Assembly: GCA_947487205.1 (NCBI GenBank)
Contig: CANKVU010000014.1
Coordinates: forward strand, 1-64,000
Length of the DNA: 64,000 nt
Source of the DNA: an uncultured Paracoccaceae bacterium
GTDB lineage: Bacteria > Pseudomonadota > Alphaproteobacteria > Rhodobacterales > Rhodobacteraceae
Reading direction: 5' to 3'
This document shows positions 1,558 through 13,979 of the stretch, in pieces (position 1 is the first letter of the stretch; each line of letters starts with the position of its first letter). Both the position numbers and the translations under genes were made by a program. The notes beneath the pieces are model-generated. The model searched no databases. It had not been told where the DNA came from and saw only the letters and a program-made list of their open reading frames with translations.

Positions 1558-2799
1558 ATGCGGACGAGCCGTTTCAGCGGGCGCAGATCATCGGGATGAT
1601 CGAGGAGCGGGGTCGACGCACTGCGTGGACGGGATGGCCGCGGGGGAAATGTGCCGCAGGCATGGCCTGAGCCCGGCGACGTTCTACGAGCTCAAAGCCA
1701 AGTATGTTTTGGCATGGAGGTCTCCGAGGCTGCTCGCCTGAAGGCTCTGGAGGACGAGACCGCCAAGCTCACGCGCCTGCTGGCCGCCACCATGCTCGAC
1801 AACGTCGTTCTGGAGGATCTGCCGGGAAGGAACGGACGCTGGGCCATCGCGCGCCATTCCTCCGAGCGACACTGGCGAACGACCGAGCGGCGAGAGGCGG
1901 CGCCCAGGGCGATGGGGGGTCACGACATCTCGCAGCGCCGGGCCTGCCGGCTTGCCGGCGTCGATCCCGGGACGGTCCGGCGAGAAGGCCCGCCGGACGG
2001 CCCGGATGTCCGCGAGGAGAGGAGGGAGATCGCCGGCAGAGGGCGGCGGTTCGGCTATCGCCGGATCGGCATTCTGCTCGAGCGGAAGGGCATGATTATG
2101 AACCACGAGACGCCCTATCGGCTCTGTCGGGAGGAAGGGCTGTCGGTGACGCGGCGGCGCGGGCGCAAGCGGGGCCCCGGGCCCGCGCATGCCGATGCCC
2201 GGGGCGCCGCAGCCCAACGCGCGCGGGGCGCTCGACTTCCCGTCCGACAGCTTCGGCGCTTTGCGCGAGTTCGCTCGCCATTGTGCTTGAACCAATGGCG
2301 CACAAGGCGCGCCCTGGCCGTGATCGACGGCCGCACGCGCGAGACCCCGCGCCTGATGGCCGATACCAGCATCTCGCGCGCCCGCGTGGCCCGCGAACTC
2401 GACGCGCTGGTGCGGGTTTGCGGAAAGCCCGATTGCGTCGTCAGCGGCAACGGGACCGAGTTCACCGGCCGGGCCATCCTGGAATGGGCCGACAGGACCG
2501 GAGTTCCCTGCCACTGCATCGACCCAGGCAAGCCGCGGCAGAACGCCTTCATCGAGGCATTCGGCGGCAGTCTGCGCGATGAGCTGTCGAACGAGGAGAT
2601 CTTCGACACTCCGGATGACGCCCGGCGCAAGCTCGCCATCTGGCGCCACGACGACGCCATGAGGCCGCATTCATCGCCCGGAAACCAGAGGCCCCTCGAA
2701 GCGCGCTGGTCGCACGGGCAATTCGAGGGCTCCGTGCCCGGCGCGCTTGCCCGAAAGGACCAACCCGACCACCAATCTCAGACCCGCAGACCCTCGTGA
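1558..2799 (+). pseudogene. IS3-family transposase orfA/orfB, inactivated
   Basis: orfA motifs ([29 protein letters not shown], then [16 protein letters not shown]) fall in three different frames, so orfA is broken. orfB keeps HTH_21 and integrase-core homology ([50 protein letters not shown]). The first catalytic Asp ([11 protein letters not shown], about 2230-2262) lies out of frame between two compensating shifts. The second is mutated: the family motif SDNGTEF reads SGNGTEF near 2445-2463. The Glu in NAFIEAF is present. The C-terminus (QTRRPS) is full length. The enzyme is dead. Confidence 0.88.
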
Positions 2800-2800
2800 T

Positions 2801-2828
2801 GAACGAGGGACCCACGGGGGGCAGGTCA
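2801..2828 (-). repeat. Right inverted repeat of the IS3-family element
   Basis: Reads inward TGACCTGCCCCCCGTGGG; partner of 1493-1520. Confidence 0.88.
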
Positions 2829-3158
2829 AACCTTCAAAGTTTTGTGCCTCGCAATACGACTTGAGATTTCCTGAAAAGGAGCAGAGACGCCCTCTCAGGG
2901 CACCAAGAAACCGACAGATCATTCGGATATCAGAAACCAGAGTGTCCGCCCCTGGGGGTCTGTCTGCCCGGCGGTGCAGACGCATTGGCGCAGGGCGTCG
3001 GCATTGCCGATGGCTTTCCATCTTGATCTCGGAGCGAGACCACAGAATTCGGCAGCCGAGAAGGCGGTGGAGTACCTTCGGGGTCGCCGCCGCAGCGCCG
3101 TGGGGGAAACCGCCTTACCCGGCTCGCCGTTGCGGGAAACCCTATGCCGGGGAACGTG
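2829..3158. other. Non-coding stretch between the IS3 element and the LytTR gene
   Basis: 330 bp with no credible gene. Open frames here have no family resemblance and no good ribosome-binding sites. I see no terminator-like hairpin followed by T residues. It may contain the 3' end of the LytTR transcript and degraded IS flanks. Confidence 0.4.
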
Positions 3159-4121
3159 TCAGGATCCGGGGCCACCGCTCTCAGAGGCGCATTCCGACCT
3201 GCGCCGCGTGCGATTCCGGGCGTCACCCGCATCCGGCACGCCGTTCGGGAACGACCGCCGCGACGCGCAGATGTCCCGGATCGCGCGGCGATAGGAGCGG
3301 CTGAGCGGAAGGCGGAGTGCGGTATCGGTGCGACAGAAATAGCGGTCGCCGTCCCGCTCGACGCAGTCCAGGTGCCCCGACGCGATCCAGTGAGAACGGT
3401 GAATCCGATATCCCCGGTCGCCCAGTTCCTCGACGGCGCGGCCGAAGGGATAGAGGATCAGCGCATCGCCCCTGGTGGTTCGGACCCGCAGGTAGTGCAG
3501 CTCGGCCGTCAGGGCGACGAGATCGCGGCCGAGAGGCCCGGGGACCTTGCTCCAGAAATCTTCCATCGGGTCCGGCGGAGCCGATCGGTCGGACGCGGCA
3601 GGTTCCGGAAGGCGCAGCAGACGCGTGGCGTTGAGGGAGAACCACACGAGGACGGAGCCCGGCAGCAGCGCGCCGAACTCGGCAGCGAGCGCGAAAGCGA
3701 TCGGCTCGGCCGTGTCATCGAGTGCCGCATCCACGCCGAACAGATGCTCGAGCATGAGCGCCACGGGCGTGAAGAGGACCGCCCCCGCGACGCCCGACAG
3801 GAAGACCTGCGCCCAGGCGTGGAGCCGGGTGAACGCCGGCATCCGCTGCAACCCGATCTGCACGACGTGCAGGAGCACCAGGAAGATCAGGATATGGGCG
3901 AGCCAGAAGACGAACCGTGGCAGCACCGGCAAACCCTGGGAGGGTTCGGGATTGAGCGTGGTGAACACCAACGCCAGGAAGATCCCGGCCACGGCCAGAA
4001 AGTCCGTCCAGCGTTCCCGCGGGTTCCAGTCGCGCGGCCAGGTCTTCAAGCGCGTCATGCCCTCCATGGCGCCGTTCCGCAGCATTCGCAGCCTCCCCTT
4101 GGTGGCGGGATCCGCGATCAT
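3159..4121 (-). CDS. Membrane-anchored LytTR-domain transcription regulator
   Basis: 320 residues. The N-terminal half has four probable membrane segments (around residues 40-56, 70-92, 105-125 and 145-168, e.g. FLAVAGIFLALVFTTL and FWLAHILIFLVLLHVVQ). The C-terminal half (about 205-290) fits a LytTR DNA-binding domain: DLVALTAELHYLRVRTTRG, the GDRGYRIHRSHW core and LPLSRSYRRAI. Such proteins regulate transcription from the membrane without a receiver domain. The last 30 residues are Arg/Ser-rich and unconserved-looking. The gene is divergent from crtY across a 450 bp gap, which makes it a candidate regulator of the carotenoid genes (inference). Upstream in-frame ATGs leave the exact start uncertain. 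Confidence 0.8.
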   Translation of the reverse strand: MIADPATKGRLRMLRNGAMEGMTRLKTWPRDWNPRERWTDFLAVAGIFLALVFTTLNPEPSQGLPVLPRFVFWLAHILIFLVLLHVVQIGLQRMPAFTRLHAWAQVFLSGVAGAVLFTPVALMLEHLFGVDAALDDTAEPIAFALAAEFGALLPGSVLVWFSLNATRLLRLPEPAASDRSAPPDPMEDFWSKVPGPLGRDLVALTAELHYLRVRTTRGDALILYPFGRAVEELGDRGYRIHRSHWIASGHLDCVERDGDRYFCRTDTALRLPLSRSYRRAIRDICASRRSFPNGVPDAGDARNRTRRRSECASESGGPGS

Positions 4122-4574
4122 GCTAGATCTTCCGGGCAGGTGGGAAAACGCGGTTCGCCCGATCTGGGCCGGGGCGCAGTGTCGCGGCGGCGGGTCATGT
4201 TCCGATCGATCGAGGCGGCTTTCGCGGGTGCGCGGGTGCGACGTCCGGTCGGGCGCGTCTAACCCGGCGCAGGCGGGATCGTCCCGGGGAATGCTGGCAG
4301 TGGCGTGCGCGACCGGGCCAGGCGGGGCGGCCCACGGGTTGGCCTCCGCATCACGGGCGGGCTCCGCTCGATTCGATCAGGTGCGCGCTGCCCGTGGGCC
4401 GCGCCGCGGATCTGCCGGCATGCAGGGACGGATGCACGGGTGACAGGGATGTCTGCACGAACGGACGTGGTGCCCGCGGGTCGTCCGTGCCACCCCGTCA
4501 GTCATTCGTGCAGGCGGCATTGCCGGCCACGCCGTTCAGACGGCAATGTCACCGAAATCGGGGAGAACGAGATC
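4122..4574. other. Divergent intergenic region between lytTR gene and crtY
   Basis: 453 bp that should hold the promoters of both the LytTR gene and the crtYIB operon. No confident -35/-10 pair could be assigned by eye. The clearest element is the 8 bp inverted repeat at 4518-4548. The TGT-N12-ACA pattern used by PpsR/CrtJ regulators was looked for and no perfect copy was noticed. Confidence 0.5.
4518..4548. promoter_or_regulatory. Inverted repeat in the crtY leader
   Basis: Perfect 8 bp arms CATTGCCG and CGGCAATG separated by 15 bp, ending 26 bp before the crtY start. It could be an operator or an mRNA leader hairpin. A shorter dyad with the same core (ACATTG-N7-CAATGT) lies upstream of crtE at 12350-12368. 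Confidence 0.4.
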
Positions 4575-5765
4575 ATGCGCCACGAGGGAGCCATCTTGCC
4601 CGAGGACCCGGACGTGATCGTCGCGGGGGCAGGACTTGCGGCGGGGCTACTGGCGCTGCGTCTCTCGGCGCTGCCGCGGCCCCCGCGCATCGTCATCCTC
4701 GAGGCAGGCGATACGGCGTTCGGCGACAAGACGTGGTCGCACCAGGCGACGGATGTCGACGCGGCGGACCGGGCCTGGCTCGATCCGGCGATCGCGAGGC
4801 GCTGGACCGGTCAGAGCGTCCGCTTCGCCAGCCTCACCCGTCACCTCACGACCGGTTATGCGTCGATGACGTCGGCCAGCCTGCGGAAAGCGGTCGGCAG
4901 GCTGCCCGGCGTGACGATCCGCACCAATGCGCGGGTCCGCGCCGTCCGACCCGACAACGTGGTGATGGACGACGGCACGCAAATTGCCGCGCCCTGCGTC
5001 ATCGACGCGCGCGGTCACCGGACCGCGCCGGGCCTGGCGCTCGCCTATCAGAAGTTCGTGGGCCTCGTCGTCGAGACAGAGGTACCGCACGGTATCGACC
5101 TGCCCGTCATCATGGACGCGACGGTCGCCCAGATCGACGGCTTCCGCTTCGTCTACCTGCTGCCATTCTCGCCCACGCGGCTCCTGATCGAGGATACGCG
5201 CTACGCCGATGGTTGCGCTCTGGACGAAGCCGGGATCGAGGCCTGCATCCGGGACTACGCCACCGCGCAGGGCTGGAAGATCGGAACCGTCGCGCACCGG
5301 GAGGCGGGGGTGCTGCCCATCGCGCTCGACTTCGACCGCCGGCTTTTCTGGTCGCACGCCCGGGACGTGCCATGGCTGGGGATGCGCGGGGCGTTCTTTC
5401 ACGCGACGACCGGCTACTCCTTTCCCGACGCGGTCCGGAACGCCAACCTGGTGGCCGAGGCATGGCCGATCCGCAGCGCCGCGCTGGCCGACCTGGTCCA
5501 TGACCATGCCCGCGCGCGCGAGCCGAGGCAGGGCTTCTACCGCTTTCTCAACCGCATGCTGTTCCGCGCCGCCCGGCCCGAGCGCCGGCACCTGGTCATG
5601 CAGAAATTCTATCGCCTGCCGCAGCCGGTGATCGAGCGGTTCTACGCCGGCCGCACCGGGTTGGGCGATGTGGCGCGGATCCTGTCGGGCAAGCCGCCCG
5701 TCCCCATCCACAGGGCGCTGCGCTCGCTCCCGACGGGGCGGCTCATGGCGGAGGCGGAGCAATGA
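4575..5765 (+). CDS. crtY: Lycopene beta-cyclase
   Basis: CrtY closes beta rings on both ends of lycopene to give beta-carotene, using an FAD-type fold in or at the inner membrane. The start at 4575 is preceded by GGGGAGAACGAG and gives 396 residues, the usual CrtY size. The N-terminal dinucleotide-binding motif is VIVAGAGLAAGLLALRL (about 14-30). Other CrtY signatures are GDKTWSH, YQKFVGLVVE, YLLPFSPTRLLIEDTRY, FFHATTGYSFP and the C-terminal IERFYAGR. The stop overlaps the crtI start (ATGA). First gene of a crtYIB operon. Confidence 0.95.
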   Translation: MRHEGAILPEDPDVIVAGAGLAAGLLALRLSALPRPPRIVILEAGDTAFGDKTWSHQATDVDAADRAWLDPAIARRWTGQSVRFASLTRHLTTGYASMTSASLRKAVGRLPGVTIRTNARVRAVRPDNVVMDDGTQIAAPCVIDARGHRTAPGLALAYQKFVGLVVETEVPHGIDLPVIMDATVAQIDGFRFVYLLPFSPTRLLIEDTRYADGCALDEAGIEACIRDYATAQGWKIGTVAHREAGVLPIALDFDRRLFWSHARDVPWLGMRGAFFHATTGYSFPDAVRNANLVAEAWPIRSAALADLVHDHARAREPRQGFYRFLNRMLFRAARPERRHLVMQKFYRLPQPVIERFYAGRTGLGDVARILSGKPPVPIHRALRSLPTGRLMAEAEQ

Positions 5766-7261
5766 AGACCTTCGACCGCCCCGCCACCGCGGCCGTCATC
5801 GGGTCCGGATTCGGCGGGCTGGCCCTGGCCATCAGGCTGCAGAGCGCCGGTATCGCCACCACGCTGTTCGAGGCGCGCGACCAGCCCGGCGGCCGCGCCT
5901 ATGTCTATCGCGACCAGGGCTTCACCTTCGATGCGGGGCCCACCGTCATCACCGATCCGGACTGCCTCGAGCAGCTCTGGGCCTTGTCGGGGCGGCGCAT
6001 GGCCGACGACGTGGACCTGATCCCCATCGACCCCTTCTACCGCCTGTGCTGGGAGGACGGGCGCCGCTTCGACCTCGTCGCCGACCAGGATGCGATGGAA
6101 GCGCAGATCGCCGCCTTCGCGCCCGCCGACGTGGCCGGGTACCGCCGCCTGCTGTCCTATAGCGAGGATCTCTATCGCGAGGGGTACGAGCGGCTGGGCA
6201 CCGTGCCGTTCCAGAGCTTCTGGTCGATGGTCAAGGTCGCGCCCACGCTGATCCGCCTGCGGTCGCACGAAAGCGTCTATACCGCCGTCTCGCGGTTCAT
6301 CCAGGACGAGAAGCTGCGCCAGGCGTTCAGCTTCCATACCCTTCTGGTCGGCGGCAATCCGTTCTCGACCTCGTCGATCTACGCCCTGATCCACGCGCTC
6401 GAGCGCAAGGGCCGGGTCTGGTTCGCCCGCGGCGGAACGGGGGCCCTGATCGACGCGATGGTGCGCCTTTTCGAGGATCTCGGCGGGATCGTGCACCTGA
6501 ACGCGCCCGTCGACCGCATCGTGGTGGCCGATGGCCGTGCCACCGGCGTGGTCGTGAACGGGACGCAGCTGGCCTTCGACAGCGTCGCGTCGAACGCCGA
6601 CATCGTCCACACCTATCGCCACATGCTGCGCGGGACGGCCCGTGGGGCGGCCAAGGCGCGGGCGCTGGAGCGAAAGACCTTCTCCATGTCGCTGTTCGTC
6701 GTCTATTTCGGGCTGAAGGCACCGCATCCGCAGCTGCAGCACCACATGGTCCTGTTCGGCCCCCGCTACCGCGCACTGCTCGCCGAGATCTTCGGGACCG
6801 ACGGGCTGGCCGAGGATTTCTCGCTCTACCTCCATGCGCCGTCGGTGACCGATGACAGCATGGCGCCCCCCGGGCAGTCGGCCTTCTACGCGCTGTCGCC
6901 GGTGCCGCATCTGGGAACGGCGTCGATCGACTGGGAGAGAATGGGGCCGCTCTACCGCGATCGCATCCTGCGTTATCTCGAGGCGCGGTATATCCCGAAC
7001 CTGGCCCGCGACCTGGTGACGGTGCGCCATTTCACGCCCTCCGACTTCTCGAGCGAGCTCAATGCCCATCTGGGCAGCGCCTTTTCGGTCGAGCCGCTCC
7101 TCACCCAGAGCGCCTGGTTCCGGCCCCACAACCGCGATGACACGATCGACAACCTGTTCATCGTCGGCGCGGGTACCCATCCCGGGGCCGGAATACCGGG
7201 CGTGGTCGGATCGGCGAAGGCGACGGCCGGCCTGATGATCGACGGGGTGGCGGCACGATGA
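5762..7261 (+). CDS. crtI: Phytoene desaturase (lycopene-forming)
   Basis: CrtI introduces the double bonds that convert colourless phytoene to lycopene. The 499-residue protein has the N-terminal FAD-binding motif VIGSGFGGLALAIRLQ (about 12-27), the GGRAYVYRDQGFTFDAGPT segment, and the C-terminal bacterial-type phytoene dehydrogenase signature NLFIVGAGTHPGAGIPGV. It overlaps crtY by 4 bp (ATGA) and crtB by 4 bp, so the three are translationally coupled. Length and context exclude the shorter amine-oxidase relatives. Confidence 0.96.
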   Translation: MKTFDRPATAAVIGSGFGGLALAIRLQSAGIATTLFEARDQPGGRAYVYRDQGFTFDAGPTVITDPDCLEQLWALSGRRMADDVDLIPIDPFYRLCWEDGRRFDLVADQDAMEAQIAAFAPADVAGYRRLLSYSEDLYREGYERLGTVPFQSFWSMVKVAPTLIRLRSHESVYTAVSRFIQDEKLRQAFSFHTLLVGGNPFSTSSIYALIHALERKGRVWFARGGTGALIDAMVRLFEDLGGIVHLNAPVDRIVVADGRATGVVVNGTQLAFDSVASNADIVHTYRHMLRGTARGAAKARALERKTFSMSLFVVYFGLKAPHPQLQHHMVLFGPRYRALLAEIFGTDGLAEDFSLYLHAPSVTDDSMAPPGQSAFYALSPVPHLGTASIDWERMGPLYRDRILRYLEARYIPNLARDLVTVRHFTPSDFSSELNAHLGSAFSVEPLLTQSAWFRPHNRDDTIDNLFIVGAGTHPGAGIPGVVGSAKATAGLMIDGVAAR

Positions 7262-8196
7262 CGGACACGATCCTGGCCGAGGCGCGCCGATCCCTTGCGA
7301 GAGGATCGCAAAGCTTCTCGGCGGCGACCCGGCTGATGCGGTCCGATCTGCGCGACGACGCCACGCTTCTCTATGCCTGGTGCCGCCATTGCGACGATGC
7401 CGTGGACGGGCAGAGCCTTGGCCATGACCGGCATCCGGTGGCCGATGCCGCGGGACGGTTGCGCGGCCTGCGAAGGGAGACCGACGCGGCCCTGGCCGGG
7501 GCGTCCGTGGCCCCGCCCTTCGCGGCGCTGGCCCGGGTCTGCGACCGCCACGCCATTCCGCGCACCCATCCGCACGAATTGCTCGACGGCCTCGCCATGG
7601 ATGTGGAGGGGCGCCGCTACGATACGCTGAGCGACACGCTCGATTACTGCTACCATGCCGCCGGGGTGGTGGGCGTGATGATGGCGCGGATCATGGGCGT
7701 GACCGACCCCGAGGCGCTGCACCGCGCATCAGATCTGGGGATCGCCTTCCAGCTGACCAACATCGCCCGCGACGTGGTCGAGGATGCGCGGGTGGGGCGT
7801 TGCTACATACCGGGCGAGATCCTGGCGGCCGAAGGCCTCACCGCGGGCGACCTCTGCGCGCCGCGCGCCTGGCCCCGCGCCCGGCGGATCGCGGTGCAGC
7901 TGCTGGACGTGGCCGAGCTCTATTACGCGTCGGGCTTTCGCGGCCTGTCCGCGCTGCCGGGCGATGCGGTCTGGGGCGTCGCCGCGGCCCGGCGGGTCTA
8001 TGGCGCGATCGGGGGACGAATCCGGTACGCGACGCCCCGGGACTGGGCCAACCGCGTCGCGACATCGCGCATGCACAAGGTCGGGGCGCTCGCCCTCGCA
8101 GCCTTCGACGGCCCGCGCGCGCGGCGCATGGCCGCCGCGCCGCGCGACGGGCTCTGGACCCGCGACGATCAGGTGTCCGGACGCTCCGTGTCCTGA
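7258..8196 (+). CDS. crtB: Phytoene synthase
   Basis: CrtB condenses two geranylgeranyl diphosphates to phytoene, the first committed carotenoid step. 312 residues. The two Asp-rich Mg-binding motifs are DDAVD at 46-50 and DVVED at about 172, inside QLTNIARDVVEDARVGRCY. It begins inside crtI (ATGA). Its last 28 bp overlap the 3' end of crtZ on the opposite strand, so the two carotenoid operons converge without a gap and without a visible terminator between them. Confidence 0.96.
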   Translation: MTDTILAEARRSLARGSQSFSAATRLMRSDLRDDATLLYAWCRHCDDAVDGQSLGHDRHPVADAAGRLRGLRRETDAALAGASVAPPFAALARVCDRHAIPRTHPHELLDGLAMDVEGRRYDTLSDTLDYCYHAAGVVGVMMARIMGVTDPEALHRASDLGIAFQLTNIARDVVEDARVGRCYIPGEILAAEGLTAGDLCAPRAWPRARRIAVQLLDVAELYYASGFRGLSALPGDAVWGVAAARRVYGAIGGRIRYATPRDWANRVATSRMHKVGALALAAFDGPRARRMAAAPRDGLWTRDDQVSGRSVS

Positions 8197-8666
8197 CCGC
8201 GCATATTGGCCTGCAGCTCGGTCCGGAGCTTCTCGACCGGCCGGACCAGCACGAAGCCGAACGACACGCAGCCTTCGCGGCCCTGCACCGCGTGGTGCAG
8301 GCGATGCGCCTGATAGATGCGGCGCAGATAGCCCCGGCGCGGCACGTGACGGAACGGCCAGCGCTGATGGACGAGGCCGTCGTGAACGCAGAAATAGATG
8401 ACGCCGTATACGCACAATCCCACCGCCACCCACCAGAGCGGCGCGAACAGCGTCGCGCCGATCCAGAACAGCCCCATGGAGAGACCGGCGAAGACCAGCG
8501 AATAGAGGTCGTTGCGCTCGACCAGGCCGCTCTGCGGCTCGTGGTGGGAGCGGTGCCAGCGCCAGCCCGGCCCGTGCATGACGACGCGGTGAACCCAGGC
8601 GGCGAACAGCTCGGTGGCCACGACCGTTGCGATGACGATGGCGGCGGGGATCAGGATGGCGGACAT
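8169..8666 (-). CDS. crtZ: Beta-carotene 3-hydroxylase
   Basis: A 165-residue membrane di-iron hydroxylase that adds 3-OH groups to beta rings (zeaxanthin, and astaxanthin together with CrtW). Histidine clusters typical of the fatty-acid hydroxylase superfamily are visible: WHRSHHEP near residue 37, HDGLVHQ, and HRLHHAV. There are hydrophobic segments at about 5-25 and 55-90. The start ATG at 8666 lies inside crtW (16 bp overlap). The C-terminal 28 bp overlap crtB antisense. Last gene of the crtE-ABC-crtW-crtZ operon. Confidence 0.95.
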   Translation of the reverse strand: MSAILIPAAIVIATVVATELFAAWVHRVVMHGPGWRWHRSHHEPQSGLVERNDLYSLVFAGLSMGLFWIGATLFAPLWWVAVGLCVYGVIYFCVHDGLVHQRWPFRHVPRRGYLRRIYQAHRLHHAVQGREGCVSFGFVLVRPVEKLRTELQANMRGQDTERPDT

Positions 8667-9382
8667 GCGGTGTCTCCTCGGGCGGCATCGGGCAGGCGCC
8701 ACCAGGGCAGCCAGGGCTTGGCGTGATGGGTATGGTGATGGCCGAAATGGAAGCAGGTCAGCAGCGAGGGCAGCCATGACAGGCCGCTCCCCCGGGCCCG
8801 GTGGCCATCGACGAAAGGCGCGGCCTCGTGCCGGTGGGGAAGATAGGTGCCGAAATAGAAGAGCTGGACCGCCGACAGGATCGCCGGAAGCGCCCAGAAG
8901 GGCAGCATGAGCGGCGCTCGCCCCCCGAGTGCCAGAGCAAGCACCAGGGATGCGGCGGCGAGGATCGCCCATTGCCTGAGCCCGAAATATTGCCGGAAGA
9001 AGGTCACGAACCAGGGGAGGAAGGCGCTCGGATGCGCGGCGTCGAAATCCGGATCGTGTTCCGTGCCCGAATGGCGGTGATGGGCGTGGTGCGATCGGGT
9101 CAGGCGATCGAAGTCGAACCCGGCATAGAGCAGCACGAAGAGGCGGCCGACCGCGCGGTTCAGCGCCGGCCATTCGGGGGCGAGCGTCCCGTGGATGGCA
9201 TCGTGCGCGACGATGAAGAGGCCGACATAGAGCCAGCACTGCACCGCGATGACGGCCGGCGCCGCCGGCCACCAGACCGCCCACGGCACGAGGAAGAGCG
9301 CGGCGAAGGCCAGGCCGGCCCAGGCGACGAGGATGAGCCCGGCGAGCACAAGTCCGATGGCGGTGGTGCGAGAGACGTTCAT
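8651..9382 (-). CDS. crtW: Beta-carotene 4-ketolase
   Basis: CrtW adds 4-keto groups to beta-ionone rings (canthaxanthin, astaxanthin). 243 residues. Histidine motifs of the CrtW family are HDAIHG (60-65), SHHAHHRHSGTEHDPDF (about 96-112) and CFHFGHHHTHH near residue 215, with membrane stretches between them. The start at 9382 overlaps the permease stop by 4 bp (ATGA), so expression is coupled to the upstream ABC genes. With CrtZ encoded next to it, the expected end product is astaxanthin or a related ketocarotenoid. Confidence 0.94.
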   Translation of the reverse strand: MNVSRTTAIGLVLAGLILVAWAGLAFAALFLVPWAVWWPAAPAVIAVQCWLYVGLFIVAHDAIHGTLAPEWPALNRAVGRLFVLLYAGFDFDRLTRSHHAHHRHSGTEHDPDFDAAHPSAFLPWFVTFFRQYFGLRQWAILAAASLVLALALGGRAPLMLPFWALPAILSAVQLFYFGTYLPHRHEAAPFVDGHRARGSGLSWLPSLLTCFHFGHHHTHHAKPWLPWWRLPDAARGDTACPPS

Positions 9383-10548
9383 AGCAGCATCCTTCGGCGA
9401 GATAGGGCCAGCGCCGCCAGCGTACCGCCGAGCGCCAGGGCGGCCAGCGCGGCGAGCGGGACGGGCTGCGACCAGATCGGTTCGGCGCGGGTCAACAGGC
9501 CGTAATAGAGATCGATGGCCCAGGCGTTGGGGGTGACAGACCCCAGATCGCGCAACCAGCCGGGCATGAGGAACCGCGGCACCATCGACCCGCCGATCGC
9601 CGATGCGACCAGCACGGCGAAGGTGGCGAGGGTCTGCGCCTGCGCGCGCGTGGTGACGGCTGCGGCGAGCGCCAGGCTGAAGCCCGCCGCCGCCGCCGCC
9701 ACCAGAAGCGTCACGGACCCCCATTGCAGCGGATGCGCCAGCACGGGCACCCCGTGGACCAGGCTTGCCGCCGCGAAGACGATGGCCGCCTGGACGCAGC
9801 CTTGCGCGGTCAGGAACAGCGCCTTGCTCATCACCACCACGTCGATGCCGCCCGGCCCGGCGGCGAAGCGGTCCAGAATGCCCGAGTTTCGCTCGTCGAT
9901 CAGGCTCGCCGCGGTCGAGGCGCCCGAGAAGAGCAGGAACATCACCGCAATGGCGCCAGCGTAATAGATGACGGCCGGATCCGTTCGCCCCTCCCCGCCC
10001 ACCGCCCGTGTGACGGTGAGGCCATCGCCACCGCGCGACGCCATGTCGCTCGCCGCGTCGAGGCGGATCTGTTGGGCGGGGCTGAGCGGTCCGATGATCG
10101 CCCGCAGCGCGTCCACCTGCCGGGCCAGCATCGCCTCGGGCGCGGCCGTCGCCAAAGCCGTGCGGACCTGCCCTTCGAGCACCGCGGCCGCCATGCCCTT
10201 GCCCGGGTCGACGAGGATGGCGAGGGGTGGCGTGGCCGTGTCGGTCAGGGTGCCCCGCAGAACGAGGCCGGCATCCAGACTGCCTTCGGTCACGGCGATC
10301 CGCAGCGCCTCCACGTCGTCGAACCGGCGGACGTCGCCGGTCAGCGCGGCGGCCAGGGCGGCCTCCACCGCGGGCGCCGGCGGGTGCGCGGCGAGGCCCA
10401 GCCGCAACTCCACCTCCCCGCCGCTCGTGGTCGAGAAGATCGCCGCGAAAAGCAGATAGATCGTCGCGGGCAGCACCAGCATGAGGACGAGTGCGCCACG
10501 GTCGCGCAGAAGGGTCAACGCCATCACCCGAACCAGCATCAGCGTCAC
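9379..10548 (-). CDS. ABC-2 type transporter permease in the carotenoid operon
   Basis: About 389 residues if started at the GTG at 10548, which overlaps the ATPase stop (GTGA); an ATG at 10539 is the alternative. One N-terminal membrane segment (about 20-38, LVLMLVLPATIYLLFAAIF) is followed by a roughly 150-residue extracytoplasmic domain. A C-terminal block of about five segments follows (AVMFLLFSGASTAASLIDERN; MVPRFLMPGWLRDLGSVTPN). This is the layout of ABC-2 exporter permeases of the YhhJ/YbhR type. Substrate is unknown. Its place between crtE and crtW, with overlaps on both sides, suggests a carotenoid-related cargo (inference). Confidence 0.88.
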   Translation of the reverse strand: MTLMLVRVMALTLLRDRGALVLMLVLPATIYLLFAAIFSTTSGGEVELRLGLAAHPPAPAVEAALAAALTGDVRRFDDVEALRIAVTEGSLDAGLVLRGTLTDTATPPLAILVDPGKGMAAAVLEGQVRTALATAAPEAMLARQVDALRAIIGPLSPAQQIRLDAASDMASRGGDGLTVTRAVGGEGRTDPAVIYYAGAIAVMFLLFSGASTAASLIDERNSGILDRFAAGPGGIDVVVMSKALFLTAQGCVQAAIVFAAASLVHGVPVLAHPLQWGSVTLLVAAAAAGFSLALAAAVTTRAQAQTLATFAVLVASAIGGSMVPRFLMPGWLRDLGSVTPNAWAIDLYYGLLTRAEPIWSQPVPLAALAALALGGTLAALALSRRRMLL

Positions 10549-11435
10549 GCCGCGACCTCCCTGGCGTAGAGCGCGGCGATGCCGGGCCGCTCCATGGCGA
10601 TGCGGCGCGGGGTGACGCCATGGGCGCGCGCGCGCGCCACGGCCGCCAGGCCGTCGTTCTCGTCGGCGATCAGAAGGGCCGGCGCGTCGGGTGCCCCGGT
10701 GAACCCGATCTCGCGCAGGCTCCGGGCCTGCCGCTCGTCCAGCCGCGCCGCGGGGGTGAGCGTCAGCAGCAGCGAGGCGCCGAAGCGCGCCGAGATGAGG
10801 TCCGCCACCGGGCCCTGGACGGCGATATGCCCCCCGGCGAGGATGGCAAGATGGGTCGCCAGCGCCTCGGCCTCGGCGAAATCGTGGGTCGTCAGCAGAA
10901 CGCCGATCCCATCGGCGACCATCCGGCGGATCAGGTCGTGCAGAACCGCCCGCGCATCGCGATCGATGCCCGCCGTCGGTTCGTCGAGGATGAGAAGCGC
11001 GGGGCGATGCAGGATTGCGGCGGCGACGTTCGCCCGGCGTTGCCACCCCCCCGACAGCGCGGCCACGACCTGGCGGCGACGCGGGCCGAGACCCGTGGTT
11101 TCGATCACGTCCGCGACGCGGCGCGCCACGTCCCTGCGCGGGACGCCGGACAGCCTGGCGAAGACGGACAGGTTCTCGGTCACGGTGAGACGGGGAAACA
11201 GGGCAATCTCCTGCGGGACCAGCCCGACGCCGCCCGCGGCAAGCATTACCCGACCGGATGTGGGCTTGATACGCCCCAGGATCGCGCGGATCATCGTCGT
11301 CTTGCCCGCGCCGTTGACACCCAGAAGGGCGCAGACCGTGCCGGCTTCGATCCTGAGATCGACATTGCTCAACACGGGCTCCGCGCCATACCCAACGGTC
11401 AGATCCGCCAGGTGAAGGGCCGCCGGCGATGTCAT
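10545..11435 (-). CDS. ABC-2 type transporter ATP-binding protein
   Basis: 296 residues with Walker A GVNGAGKTT (39-47), the Q-loop region VGLVPQEIALFPRLT, signature LSGGWQRR, Walker B LLILDEPTAGID and the switch His in LLTTHDFAEAE. After about residue 215 comes a short C-terminal domain, as in DrrA-like exporters. It pairs with the permease encoded immediately downstream (GTGA overlap) and itself overlaps the crtE stop by 4 bp. The signature is LSGGW rather than the more common LSGGQ. Confidence 0.93.
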   Translation of the reverse strand: MTSPAALHLADLTVGYGAEPVLSNVDLRIEAGTVCALLGVNGAGKTTMIRAILGRIKPTSGRVMLAAGGVGLVPQEIALFPRLTVTENLSVFARLSGVPRRDVARRVADVIETTGLGPRRRQVVAALSGGWQRRANVAAAILHRPALLILDEPTAGIDRDARAVLHDLIRRMVADGIGVLLTTHDFAEAEALATHLAILAGGHIAVQGPVADLISARFGASLLLTLTPAARLDERQARSLREIGFTGAPDAPALLIADENDGLAAVARARAHGVTPRRIAMERPGIAALYAREVAA

Positions 11436-12298
11436 CGGCAAGCCGCGGGGTCGTATTGGGAGGCGAGGAAGCCGCGCAGCGCGACCGGATCGATGCCCGC
11501 GCGGACCAGCGCCGCATCGGCACGCAGCATGTGCTGCACCCGGCGCGACCAGGCAGGGCGTGAGCCGAGCGCGGCCGCAAGGGTCGGTTTTCCGTGATCC
11601 CGACCGACATCCTTTCCCGTCTCGGCCGAGCTGGCGGCGCCGTCGAGCGCGTCGTCGTCGATCTGGAAGCCGAGGCCGAAATGACAGGCGAAGGCGTCGA
11701 TCTCGGCCTCGGTGTTCGGCGGGTGCCCGGCAATGACCGAGCCGATCCGGGCCGAGGCCCGAAACAGTTCGGCGGTCTTCAGCGCGTTGAGAAGCTCGAC
11801 ATCTTCTCCAGAGGCAGCGCTGCCGTCCACATCCATCTGCTGGCCCGCCGCCATGCCGTCCGCGCCGATGGCCCGGGCCAGGATCGCGCAAAGCCGGGCG
11901 CGCCGGTCCGTGTCGATCCGCACCTCGCTCAGCACTTCGAAGGCCTTCGCGATCAGGGAGACGGCCGCCAGGATCGCCGACGCCTCACCGAAGGTCCGAT
12001 GCGTGGCCGGGCGGCCCCGCCGCAGTGCCGCGTCGTCCATGGCGGGCAGATCGTCGAGGATGAGCGACGCCGCATGGATCATCTCGACGGCGCAGCCGGA
12101 ATCGAGCGTGGCCGGATCGTCGCCCCCGATCAGTTGGACGATCATCGGTCGCAAGCGCTTTCCGGGCGCCAGGACGGCGGCGCGCATGGCTTTCTGGGTC
12201 GCAAGCGGCCCGTTCGGGCACAGCAAGGCCAGCCGGGTATCGATCGCCTGACGCATGGTCTCGGTATCGGGATGGGTTCGGCGCGGGGAATTCGACAT
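11432..12298 (-). CDS. crtE: Geranylgeranyl diphosphate synthase
   Basis: CrtE makes the C20 precursor GGPP used by CrtB. 288 residues of the all-alpha prenyltransferase family. The first Asp-rich motif is LDDLPAMDDAALRRGRPATH (DDxxxxD at 82-89); the second is GFQIDDDALD in the last third. KRLRPMIVQ is the usual isoprenoid-binding segment. First gene of the minus-strand operon; the 950 bp gap upstream should contain its promoter. Confidence 0.94.
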   Translation of the reverse strand: MSNSPRRTHPDTETMRQAIDTRLALLCPNGPLATQKAMRAAVLAPGKRLRPMIVQLIGGDDPATLDSGCAVEMIHAASLILDDLPAMDDAALRRGRPATHRTFGEASAILAAVSLIAKAFEVLSEVRIDTDRRARLCAILARAIGADGMAAGQQMDVDGSAASGEDVELLNALKTAELFRASARIGSVIAGHPPNTEAEIDAFACHFGLGFQIDDDALDGAASSAETGKDVGRDHGKPTLAAALGSRPAWSRRVQHMLRADAALVRAGIDPVALRGFLASQYDPAACR

Positions 12299-13250
12299 GA
12301 CGATGGGTCCTAGGCGAGGCCGAGCACGGGCCTGGAGCCAGATGTCTCGACATTGGGCGTGGCAATGTTCTTCGCCTCCGACCTACGGTTCGCAGTCTTG
12401 CAGGCGCGCGGCACGCTCGGCGGCGCCAGATCGCAAGCCGCGCCGAGGTCCAGCGCCGCTGCCGGGATCACGCAGGAGGCAGGGACGGCATTGGGTGCCT
12501 TTCCAAGGTCGTTCAATTTCCGCTCCGCTCCCCTGACGCCGGTTCGTGGCAGATCCGCCAAGGATCATTAGAGGCCAAAGAGCGGCGAAGGTCACCCGGA
12601 CATGCACGAAAACCACTTTTCCCTGCACCGGCGACACGCGGGAGCCGCCGTCTATTCGACCTTCAGGATCGGTCAGACGGTGATGAAGACCTCCGCTGCG
12701 CTGATCGAATTGCTCCGGCGATCTGGCCGGTGGGCGGTTGACCGGCCGGCCCCTGTGGGGTGGTCCGGTTTCGGTCCCGATACATGGCGAATCCTTGCGC
12801 CGAGGCGGATGCCTGGAGCGGTAGGGATTCCCGGCCACGATACGCGCAAAGAGCGACCAGCGGTGCGGGTGGTCAGTGCCCGGCGATGGGTGACGCCGTG
12901 CGGTTTCGCAAGGGACACGCCATGCCGCGACCACAACGCGGGCCTGGGCGAGGGAAAAGAAGATCTCCCGGTCCAGCCGTTCGTGACGGAGCGTCGGGGC
13001 GAAGTTTTCGCGGCGGCCCCGGGAGAATGGTCCACCGGACCGTTTTCCGTGCCCCCGACAGTCCCGGGGATGGGTCTTCCGCGCGAAGATGCCGGCACAC
13101 CGTACGAGACGCACCCCCCCCCGGCTCCCCGGGGAGATGCGGGTCGCGGAGCGATCGCGTGCGCCCCAACATTCCGTAGCGTCAATCAGGTGGTGGTGAT
13201 ACTTTTACCGAGTTGCCATGCAGCAGCCATCCAGAAGGGATCATTTACCC
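12299..13250. other. Long intergenic region between crtE and the VPLPA-CTERM gene
   Basis: About 950 bp. Open frames exist on both strands (for example 12310-12561 and 12673-13185 on the minus strand), but none has a recognisable domain or good initiation signals, so I call none of them. The part next to crtE holds a CATTG/CAATG dyad. The rest shows no clear element. Confidence 0.5.
12350..12368. promoter_or_regulatory. Inverted repeat upstream of crtE
   Basis: ACATTG-N7-CAATGT, about 50 bp upstream of the crtE start. It shares the CATTG...CAATG core with the dyad in front of crtY, so a common regulator of the two carotenoid operons is possible. Confidence 0.35.
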
Positions 13251-13979
13251 ATGAGTTATTTCATTCCAGCCGCACTTGCTGTCGCCACCGCCATTGCCGT
13301 CTCCGCCCCTGCCAAAGCCGCGACCGTTCCGTTCGTCGTTCCGGGCACGGCGAATCCTTATCTCGCCGGCCTTCCGGCGGGAACACCGGCAAGCTCTGGG
13401 GACACCGCGCCGGCCAACTCCCCGGTCCTTGTGACGGGCCTCGACGTATCGGGCGGCGCGACCTTCACCTTTTCGGCGACGGGGCAAGTCTCCCTCGGGT
13501 TGGGACTCGGGCCGGACGCGGATGGGACGTCCCCGATCAATCATTACGGGACCCCCGAGAACGGCTTGTCCGATGTGACCATGCCGCGCGTCTCGCTGCT
13601 CGGCGTATTCCTGAGCGACATGCTTCCGACCGCAACCCCTGCCCCCGACGCGCTGGATTTCTCGTCGGATGCCAGCCAGAATTACACGACGCTCTCTCCG
13701 CTCCTGAAACAGATCTTCTTCATCGGGGATGGGGTGAGCGATGCGGGCGACACACAGGAGATCGTCGCACCGGACGGCGCGACGCGACTTTTCCTCGGGG
13801 CCATGGATGGATTCGGTTGGTACAACAATTCCGGTGCCTTCAATGTCTCGGTGACCGGACCTGACCGCGACGATACCGACCCTGCGACACCCGCACCCGT
13901 CCCGGTCCCTGCGGGCGCCCCGCTGCTCCTCGCGGGCTTGGCGGCGCTGGGCGCGGTGCGCCTGCGTAAGCGCCGATAA
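13251..13979 (+). CDS. VPLPA-CTERM sorting domain protein, exported
   Basis: 242 residues from the ATG at 13251 (AGAAGGGA 12 bp upstream). An N-terminal signal peptide, MSYFIPAALAVATAIAVSAP, is cut probably after AKA. The middle is an acidic, Gly/Ser/Thr-rich beta-type ectodomain without a known catalytic motif. The C-terminus has the tripartite sorting signal of the VPLPA-CTERM group: VPVPAG, the hydrophobic APLLLAGLAALGAV, and a basic tail RLRKRR. Such proteins are processed by exosortase-like systems and linked to the cell surface or exopolysaccharide. The exact role is unknown. An alternative start lies at 13218. Confidence 0.85.
   Translation: MSYFIPAALAVATAIAVSAPAKAATVPFVVPGTANPYLAGLPAGTPASSGDTAPANSPVLVTGLDVSGGATFTFSATGQVSLGLGLGPDADGTSPINHYGTPENGLSDVTMPRVSLLGVFLSDMLPTATPAPDALDFSSDASQNYTTLSPLLKQIFFIGDGVSDAGDTQEIVAPDGATRLFLGAMDGFGWYNNSGAFNVSVTGPDRDDTDPATPAPVPVPAGAPLLLAGLAALGAVRLRKRR

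Follow-up and report, generated by a model that had tools for sequence, protein, structure and literature searches.

How do carotenoids pass from the inner-membrane enzymes to the outer leaflet or the outer membrane of a bacterial cell? To our knowledge, this question is unanswered for bacteria, and we know of no proven bacterial carotenoid transporter. It is raised by a 64,000-nucleotide stretch of DNA of an uncultured Paracoccaceae bacterium (assembly GCA_947487205.1, contig CANKVU010000014.1, positions 1 to 64,000; hereafter the window, whose coordinates are used throughout), in which two genes of an ATP-binding cassette (ABC) transporter, encoding an ATPase and an ABC-2 permease, lie within a carotenoid (crt) operon. 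Comparative sequence analysis strongly supports an association of this gene pair with crt genes, which appears to be wider than was assumed in an earlier note on this DNA. A carotenoid is the probable cargo, and our favoured reading, held with moderate confidence, is that the pair constitutes a dedicated ABC-2 exporter or flippase moving polar-ended carotenoids across the inner membrane.

The operon is located on the minus strand, in the order crtE–ATPase–ABC-2 permease–crtW–crtZ:

11432-12298, minus strand: crtE, prenyl diphosphate synthase (Pfam polyprenyl_synt, 1.2e-42; both Asp-rich motifs, at 82 and 215)
11432-11435, minus strand: ATGA overlap of the crtE stop and the ATPase start, read from the sequence
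10545-11435, minus strand: ATPase (nucleotide-binding domain) of the ABC exporter, 296 amino acids (Pfam ABC_tran, 101.5 bits, 7.5e-29)
10545-10548, minus strand: GTGA overlap of the ATPase stop and the permease start, read from the sequence
9379-10548, minus strand: ABC-2 permease, 389 amino acids, GTG start (Pfam ABC2_membrane_3, 90.3 bits, 1.7e-25)
9379-9382, minus strand: ATGA overlap of the permease stop and the crtW start, read from the sequence (the same in loci L011, L091 and L092)
8651-9382, minus strand: crtW, probable beta-carotene ketolase (Pfam FA_desaturase; best NCBIfam match BCarotKetCrtW, 208.9 bits, below the cut-off of 350)
8169-8666, minus strand: crtZ, probable beta-carotene hydroxylase (Pfam FA_hydroxylase, 3.3e-13; His boxes)

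The position of the ATPase and the permease between crtE and crtW, with overlaps ATGA, GTGA and ATGA, had been described in the earlier note, and the coordinates, Pfam matches and motifs agree with it; a further overlap, of 16 bases, joins crtW and crtZ. The ATPase carries Walker A (at 39), LSGG signature (127), Walker B (147) and H-loop (183) motifs. The permease exceeds the Pfam ABC2_membrane_3 cut-off (90.3 versus 31.6 bits) and its hydropathy (a simple scan, judged by eye) fits 6 transmembrane (TM) helices, with a non-membrane stretch of about 150 residues between TM1 and TM2. By family, as judged from the ATPase motifs and the permease Pfam match, the pair is a putative ABC-2 type exporter, with export itself being predicted. 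The 2+2 arrangement of ATPase and permease is the usual architecture of this class.

Homologues were searched for with the permease sequence alone, and neighbouring genes played no part in their selection. With the window permease as a query, matches (E<=1e-10) were obtained in 9 of 394 genomes sampled from the same family (8 besides the window's own, at 26-28% identity) and, in a phylum-wide sample, in 12 of 398 genomes, five of them strong. Two plasmids, of Neorhizobium sp. SOG26 (44% identity) and Microvirga ossetica (37%), and two uncultured Rhodobacteraceae contigs (loci L011 and L012; 87-90%) also matched, while the phage records searched gave no match with the permease. A profile of nine permease sequences matched 7 of 385 genomes in a class-wide sample at E<=1e-20 (four strongly) and, at E<=1e-30, 15 of 199 genomes of family f2 and 36 of 199 genomes of family f5. 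Family f2 is probably, as a guess from gene order, Beijerinckiaceae with Methylobacterium, and f5 perhaps, also as a guess, Caulobacteraceae. An assignment of f5 to Sphingomonadaceae was dropped, since, according to excerpts of PMC5989583, crtE never occurs alongside other crt open reading frames (ORFs) in the Sphingomonadales set of that study.

The resulting 58 loci, including the window, derive from f5 (36), f2 (15), f192 (2), Rhodobacteraceae (3, i.e. the window, L011 and L012), Neorhizobium and Microvirga. In a quick maximum-likelihood tree of 64 permeases they formed a clade apart from six distant homologues (support 97, with long outgroup branches), and this clade spans at least four alphaproteobacterial families. 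Within it, 14 permeases constitute one subclade (support 99), which was labelled C30 by the neighbouring genes of 11 members and by the rest of the genome for the other three (L134-L136); the deep order among the C40 groups is unsettled in this tree.

Neighbourhoods were compared in stretches of about 9 kb per side, or up to the contig end, with crt genes scored at 100 bits or more. At least one crt gene was present in 54 of the 58 clade loci (window counted), compared with one of six control loci with distant homologues (weak genome G1096 left out). Thus, the outcome named in the earlier note as speaking against its idea, i.e. homologues occurring mostly away from crt genes, did not hold. The four loci lacking a scored crt gene are L012, which has a decayed crtE and a contig end just past the permease, and L134-L136. 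No crt match was found within the 1.5 kb flanks of the weaker permease matches L003-L010. The single crt-associated control, L094 (genome G846; 92-1714 and 2651-4958), contains a distantly related ABC-2 pair that falls outside the clade and adjoins a crtI-family gene; perhaps it is a second, independent link.

The arrangement around the pair differs between the lineages. Among the 44 clade members in C40 loci, crtZ or crtW was found in 43, the 44th (L012) stopping at the contig end. The f5 loci have the order crtE–ATPase–permease, with crtZ in all 36 and crtE in 35 (the remaining locus begins at a contig end), and the f192 loci share the order of the window, crtE–ATPase–permease–crtW–crtZ facing crtYIB. 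In Neorhizobium (L025), ATPase–permease–crtW–crtZ is followed by a UDP-glycosyltransferase gene, and the protein encoded after crtW is 59% identical to the window CrtZ. A gene for a phytochrome histidine kinase is located just upstream of ABC–crtW–crtZ in L025 and the UDP-glycosyltransferase gene just after it (5828-7963 and 11540-12823); light control is possible there, as is a glycosylated xanthophyll. In the C30 subclade, 11 of the 14 members lie beside C30-type crt genes, and the three others are located elsewhere in genomes that have such genes. The Microvirga locus and most f2 loci combine the pair with C30-type crt genes, an acyltransferase, a glycosyltransferase and a gene for a DUF2141 protein, while two f2 loci, L137 and L141, have crtY and crtW. 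In L137 (G1248; about 3500-7300) two more ABC-2 permeases, with adjacent ATPase matches, are encoded no more than 4 kb from the carotenoid pair.

The tight coupling of the genes also recurs. The ATPase–permease overlap of 4 bases is present in 56 of the 58 loci, window included, and the crtE–ATPase junction distance ranges from -17 to +10 bases in 39 measured loci, being exactly -4 in 26 of them; the script chose the start nearest the junction and was limited to crtE frames whose end lay at most a few hundred bases away, which biases the result towards short distances, and it did not select for the reading-frame relation itself. The overlap arrangement recurs across loci and is not due to chance.

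In two near relatives of the window locus, L011 (7692-8117) and L012 (about 7821-8114), crtE is a decayed remnant, which in L011 has lost the part around the first Asp-rich motif (by eye), and the adjacent ABC pair is intact, with the ATPase start still overlapping the end of the decayed frame in both loci. The ratios of nonsynonymous to synonymous substitution rates (dN/dS) among the window, L011 and L012 are 0.19-0.21 (permease) and 0.21-0.25 (ATPase); the comparison of the window with L011 gave 0.145 for crtW and 0.14 for crtI. The pair is under purifying selection in these near relatives with a decaying crtE, and therefore it seems to be retained for something other than CrtE.

Co-occurrence was also examined genome-wide, with crtI-family genes called at E<=1e-60 and with Fisher values that ignore shared ancestry. 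In a block of 80 f5 genomes (G1304-G1383), 24 were crtI-positive, including 11/11 pair-bearing genomes versus 13/69 others (Fisher 2.4e-7). The respective values for 77 f2 genomes (G1227-G1303) were 32 in total, 8/8 and 24/69 (Fisher 5e-4). Together with the crt neighbours of 54 of the 58 clade members, these counts bear out the tie to carotenoid genes proposed in the earlier note. In 5 of the 11 pair-bearing f5 genomes (G1332, G1343, G1351, G1358 and G1376) crtI lies on another contig or 0.1-1.4 Mb off, and in the same five genomes crtE and crtZ are still with the pair. A C30-type crt gene pair, assigned post hoc by bit scores (one gene 485-521, the other 401-420 bits), occurs in 8 of the 77 f2 genomes, 7 of which also have the ABC pair (Fisher 2.6e-8). 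Scanning of 29 of 54 pair-bearing whole genomes, chosen by us, with ABC2_membrane_3 (E<=1e-12) gave 81 places, of which 29 were the family member; of the remaining 52, 3 were within 20 kb of the family member, to which the distance was scored.

What could be the common cargo of the two branches? The C40 route begins with geranylgeranyl diphosphate and ends in rings bearing hydroxy or keto groups. The C30 route passes through squalene, with acids, sugars and acyl chains at its end, as given in excerpts of PMC10448405. The two routes share mainly the class of product (a long polyene with polar ends) and therefore the finished pigment is the proposed cargo; cargo upstream of the carotenoid is disfavoured because the precursors would differ between the branches. 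In the proposed mechanism, the ATPase and the permease would form a 2+2 ABC-2 transporter (type V fold class), which would pick up the finished pigment from the inner leaflet, the site of the membrane-bound Crt enzymes, and flip or extrude it to the periplasmic face of this membrane. The pigment may then stay in the outer leaflet or pass on to the outer membrane, and in the C30 branch the secreted-looking DUF2141 protein could serve as its periplasmic carrier. We infer the cargo, the direction of transport (export rather than import, from the family), delivery to the outer membrane and the role of DUF2141.

In 13 of 14 C30-branch loci (L026, L027, L029, L030, L130-L136, L138 and L139), as against 0 of 44 C40 loci, a DUF2141 gene (PF09912) adjoins the pair or lies close to it, and the N-terminus of the protein encoded in L027 is signal-peptide-like (by eye). 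In Sphingomonadales DUF2141 is found beside crtG, its function being unknown (excerpts of PMC5989583 and PMC9241875), so it accompanies carotenoid genes in two settings. It is possible that DUF2141 is a carotenoid-handling periplasmic protein.

Several observations weigh against a carotenoid-dedicated exporter with DUF2141 as a partner. An ABC-2 sequence does not reveal its substrate; L134-L136 lie away from crt genes; the control L094 has a crtI-family neighbour; and DUF2141 is encoded in the control L032 too, some 7 kb away from the distant ABC genes of that locus. A DUF2141 search of the host genome gave no match. The AlphaFold2 model of the permease, built from three sequences (window, L011 and L012), reached a pLDDT of 34 and was not used, and the shared ancestry ignored by the Fisher values has to be added to this list. 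Furthermore, the pair is absent from 13 of 24 crtI-positive genomes in the f5 block and from 24 of 32 in the f2 block, from G1229 (f2, 74% complete), which lacks the ABC permease and has a C30-type crt pair, from G1324 (f5), whose similar crt pair scores 495 and 394 bits, and from G023, which has CrtW; among three plasmid records with a CrtW-like gene it is present in only one. Since many carotenoid producers do without the pair, such pigments can be made in its absence.

Which other functions could account for these data? The alternative that survives best, although we judge it unlikely, is that the pair moves another lipid or a stress compound and is kept beside crt genes through a shared light or oxidative-stress regulon. 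ABC-2 exporters carry many lipids and drugs, regulators are encoded beside the clusters (LytTR in the window, the phytochrome kinase in L025) and three clade members are located away from crt genes. However, a shared regulon accounts less well for the start-stop coupling of the pair to crtE (at some loci also to crtW or crtZ), for the persistence of the pair with crtE and crtZ even where crtYIB sits elsewhere, and for the crtI-positive state of all pair-bearing genomes in both blocks (11/11 and 8/8).

Next, and in our view rather improbable, is a flippase confined to the inner membrane, which would turn or spread carotenoids to make them span the bilayer or to relieve their inhibition of the Crt enzymes, with no onward transport. 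Crt enzymes work on a membrane pool, and no outer-membrane partner was present among the few recurring neighbour genes scanned. In the partner-gene search around the pair (57 of 58 loci, L012 excluded) many unmatched clusters were obtained and set aside, as they resemble antisense shadows cast by crt genes at high G+C. Ten recurring candidates were scanned with Pfam, of which four matched (FMN_dh, NUDIX, aldehyde dehydrogenase and GST) and six did not; three further candidates comprised an NAD kinase, a carboxyl transferase and one without a match. Against this flippase stands the signal-peptide-like DUF2141 protein, whose gene lies near the pair in nearly all C30-branch loci, which suggests a periplasmic step there.

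Export of by-products (apocarotenoids, prenyl alcohols or excess prenyl diphosphate derivatives) would fit crtE being directly upstream at the 39 script-measured junctions, but it is very doubtful, and prenyl precursors were largely rejected as cargo, since no crtE match occurs in the stretches compared for the C30-branch loci and the pair is kept in L011 and L012 despite the decay of crtE.

Returning to the export of polar-ended carotenoids, a broader version may be put forward tentatively, as something that could well prove wrong: one ABC-2 clade would carry xanthophylls (C40) and carotenoid glycolipids (C30) to the outer leaflet and the outer membrane, with DUF2141 as the C30 periplasmic carrier, and bacteriochlorophyll-linked carotenoids, destined for inner-membrane pigment-proteins, would be excluded. 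The host genome contains two further crtI-family genes, one beside BchI (L183, G000:C1:386000-399000) and the other, CrtD, near BchY and a prenyl synthase (L184, G000:C10:62000-76000). Neither bacteriochlorophyll-linked locus contained an ABC-2 permease at the thresholds used, so that among the carotenoid loci of the host the pair is found only in the keto/hydroxy cluster, which counts in favour of the main reading as well. Given the bacteriochlorophyll genes near crtI and crtD, the host appears able to make two kinds of carotenoids; possibly it is an anoxygenic phototroph that has two carotenoid systems.

How does the pair relate to known systems? Exporters of drugs and lipids of the DrrAB type (PF12698) likewise have separate ATPase and permease genes, the window permease has ABC2_membrane_3 and a distant similarity to drrB, and drrA is the best NCBIfam match of the ATPase. 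In contrast to the DrrAB daunorubicin exporter subfamily, the window pair belongs to the carotenoid-tied clade and falls far under the NCBIfam cut-offs (drrA 168.3 of 312.45 and drrB 38.2 of 223.05 bits). Eukaryotic ABCA lipid exporters (ABCA1, ABCA3, ABCA4 and ABCA7) head the list of solved chains matching the window ATPase, and ABCA4 carries a retinoid-lipid. A special kinship with ABCA was set aside: each ABCA chain contains two ATPase domains, so that the score over the whole chain may come out higher, and the window permease gave no match to ABCA. In Corynebacterium glutamicum, cg0722, an MmpL/RND transporter gene of unknown function, directly follows crtE in the crt operon (excerpts of PMC5401885). 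Unlike the window pair, to which its protein is unrelated, cg0722 represents the RND superfamily in a Gram-positive host with C50 carotenoids.

A closer parallel is the C30 cluster META1p3663-3670 of Methylobacterium extorquens AM1, in which, according to excerpts of PMC10448405, 3663 encodes a glycosyltransferase, 3664 an acyltransferase, 3665 crtP and 3670 crtN. As far as this partial source allows, the order fits genus g400 loci such as L027, where the permease, ATPase and DUF2141 genes lie between crtP and crtN, and by analogy the pair would fill tags 3666-3669; the AM1 cluster differs from that of the window in yielding a C30 glycosylated rather than a C40 carotenoid.

The earlier note held that, to its author's knowledge, known crt clusters lack an ABC exporter; this did not stand, as the pair is common in family f5 (36/199 genomes), while no paper describing it was found. 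Excerpts of the main text of PMC10448405 and of PMC5989583 contain no "ABC", "transport" or "permease". In the available portions of the remaining papers, such terms occur only within accession numbers (PMC3324416) or as "electron transport" (PMC3380023, where a figure legend has two ORFs without predicted function), "transport" and "ORF" do not occur in PMC3111180, nor "ABC transporter" in PMC9241875, and PMC13023446 has no "ABC" and a single mention of "transporter". Among papers surveyed by title or the start of the abstract, neither the pair nor a bacterial carotenoid ABC exporter was found; the Brevundimonas crt papers (Nishida 2005, Tao 2006), in which the two ORFs of the pair may be annotated, lay outside this scope. 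What is named here is the gene pair, its family and DUF2141 as a possible partner. If the proposed function is true, the pair could also be used to make cell factories secrete astaxanthin, zeaxanthin and C30 glycocarotenoids.

The remaining genes of the cluster are located on the plus strand, the crtE-to-crtZ operon being convergent on crtY-crtI-crtB, and a regulator gene lies beside crtY:

4575-5765, plus strand: crtY, lycopene beta-cyclase (TIGR01789, 404.6 bits, above the cut-off of 215.2)
5762-7261, plus strand: crtI, phytoene desaturase family (TIGR02734, 682.8 bits, above the cut-off of 238.1)
7258-8196, plus strand: crtB, phytoene synthase (SQS_PSY, 1e-66; NF042419, 309.9 bits, below the cut-off of 480)
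3159-4121, minus strand: LytTR-type regulator (Pfam LytTR, 8.4e-08; a 72% identical gene in the same place in L011)

The convergent 3' ends of crtB and crtZ overlap by 28 bases. CrtY and the CrtI family pass their NCBIfam cut-offs, and CrtW, CrtE (159.9 of 460 bits) and CrtB fall short; the exact specificity of the latter three therefore rests on family, motifs and context. The product of the pathway in the window organism is probably astaxanthin or another keto/hydroxy carotenoid, and the LytTR-type protein is a possible candidate regulator of the cluster. A secreted-looking protein without a Pfam match, with a C-terminal hydrophobic and basic, sorting-signal-like tail, is encoded at 13218-13979. 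Adjoining the carotenoid cluster, an integrase-core transposase frame is present at 1651-2799, which suggests mobility.

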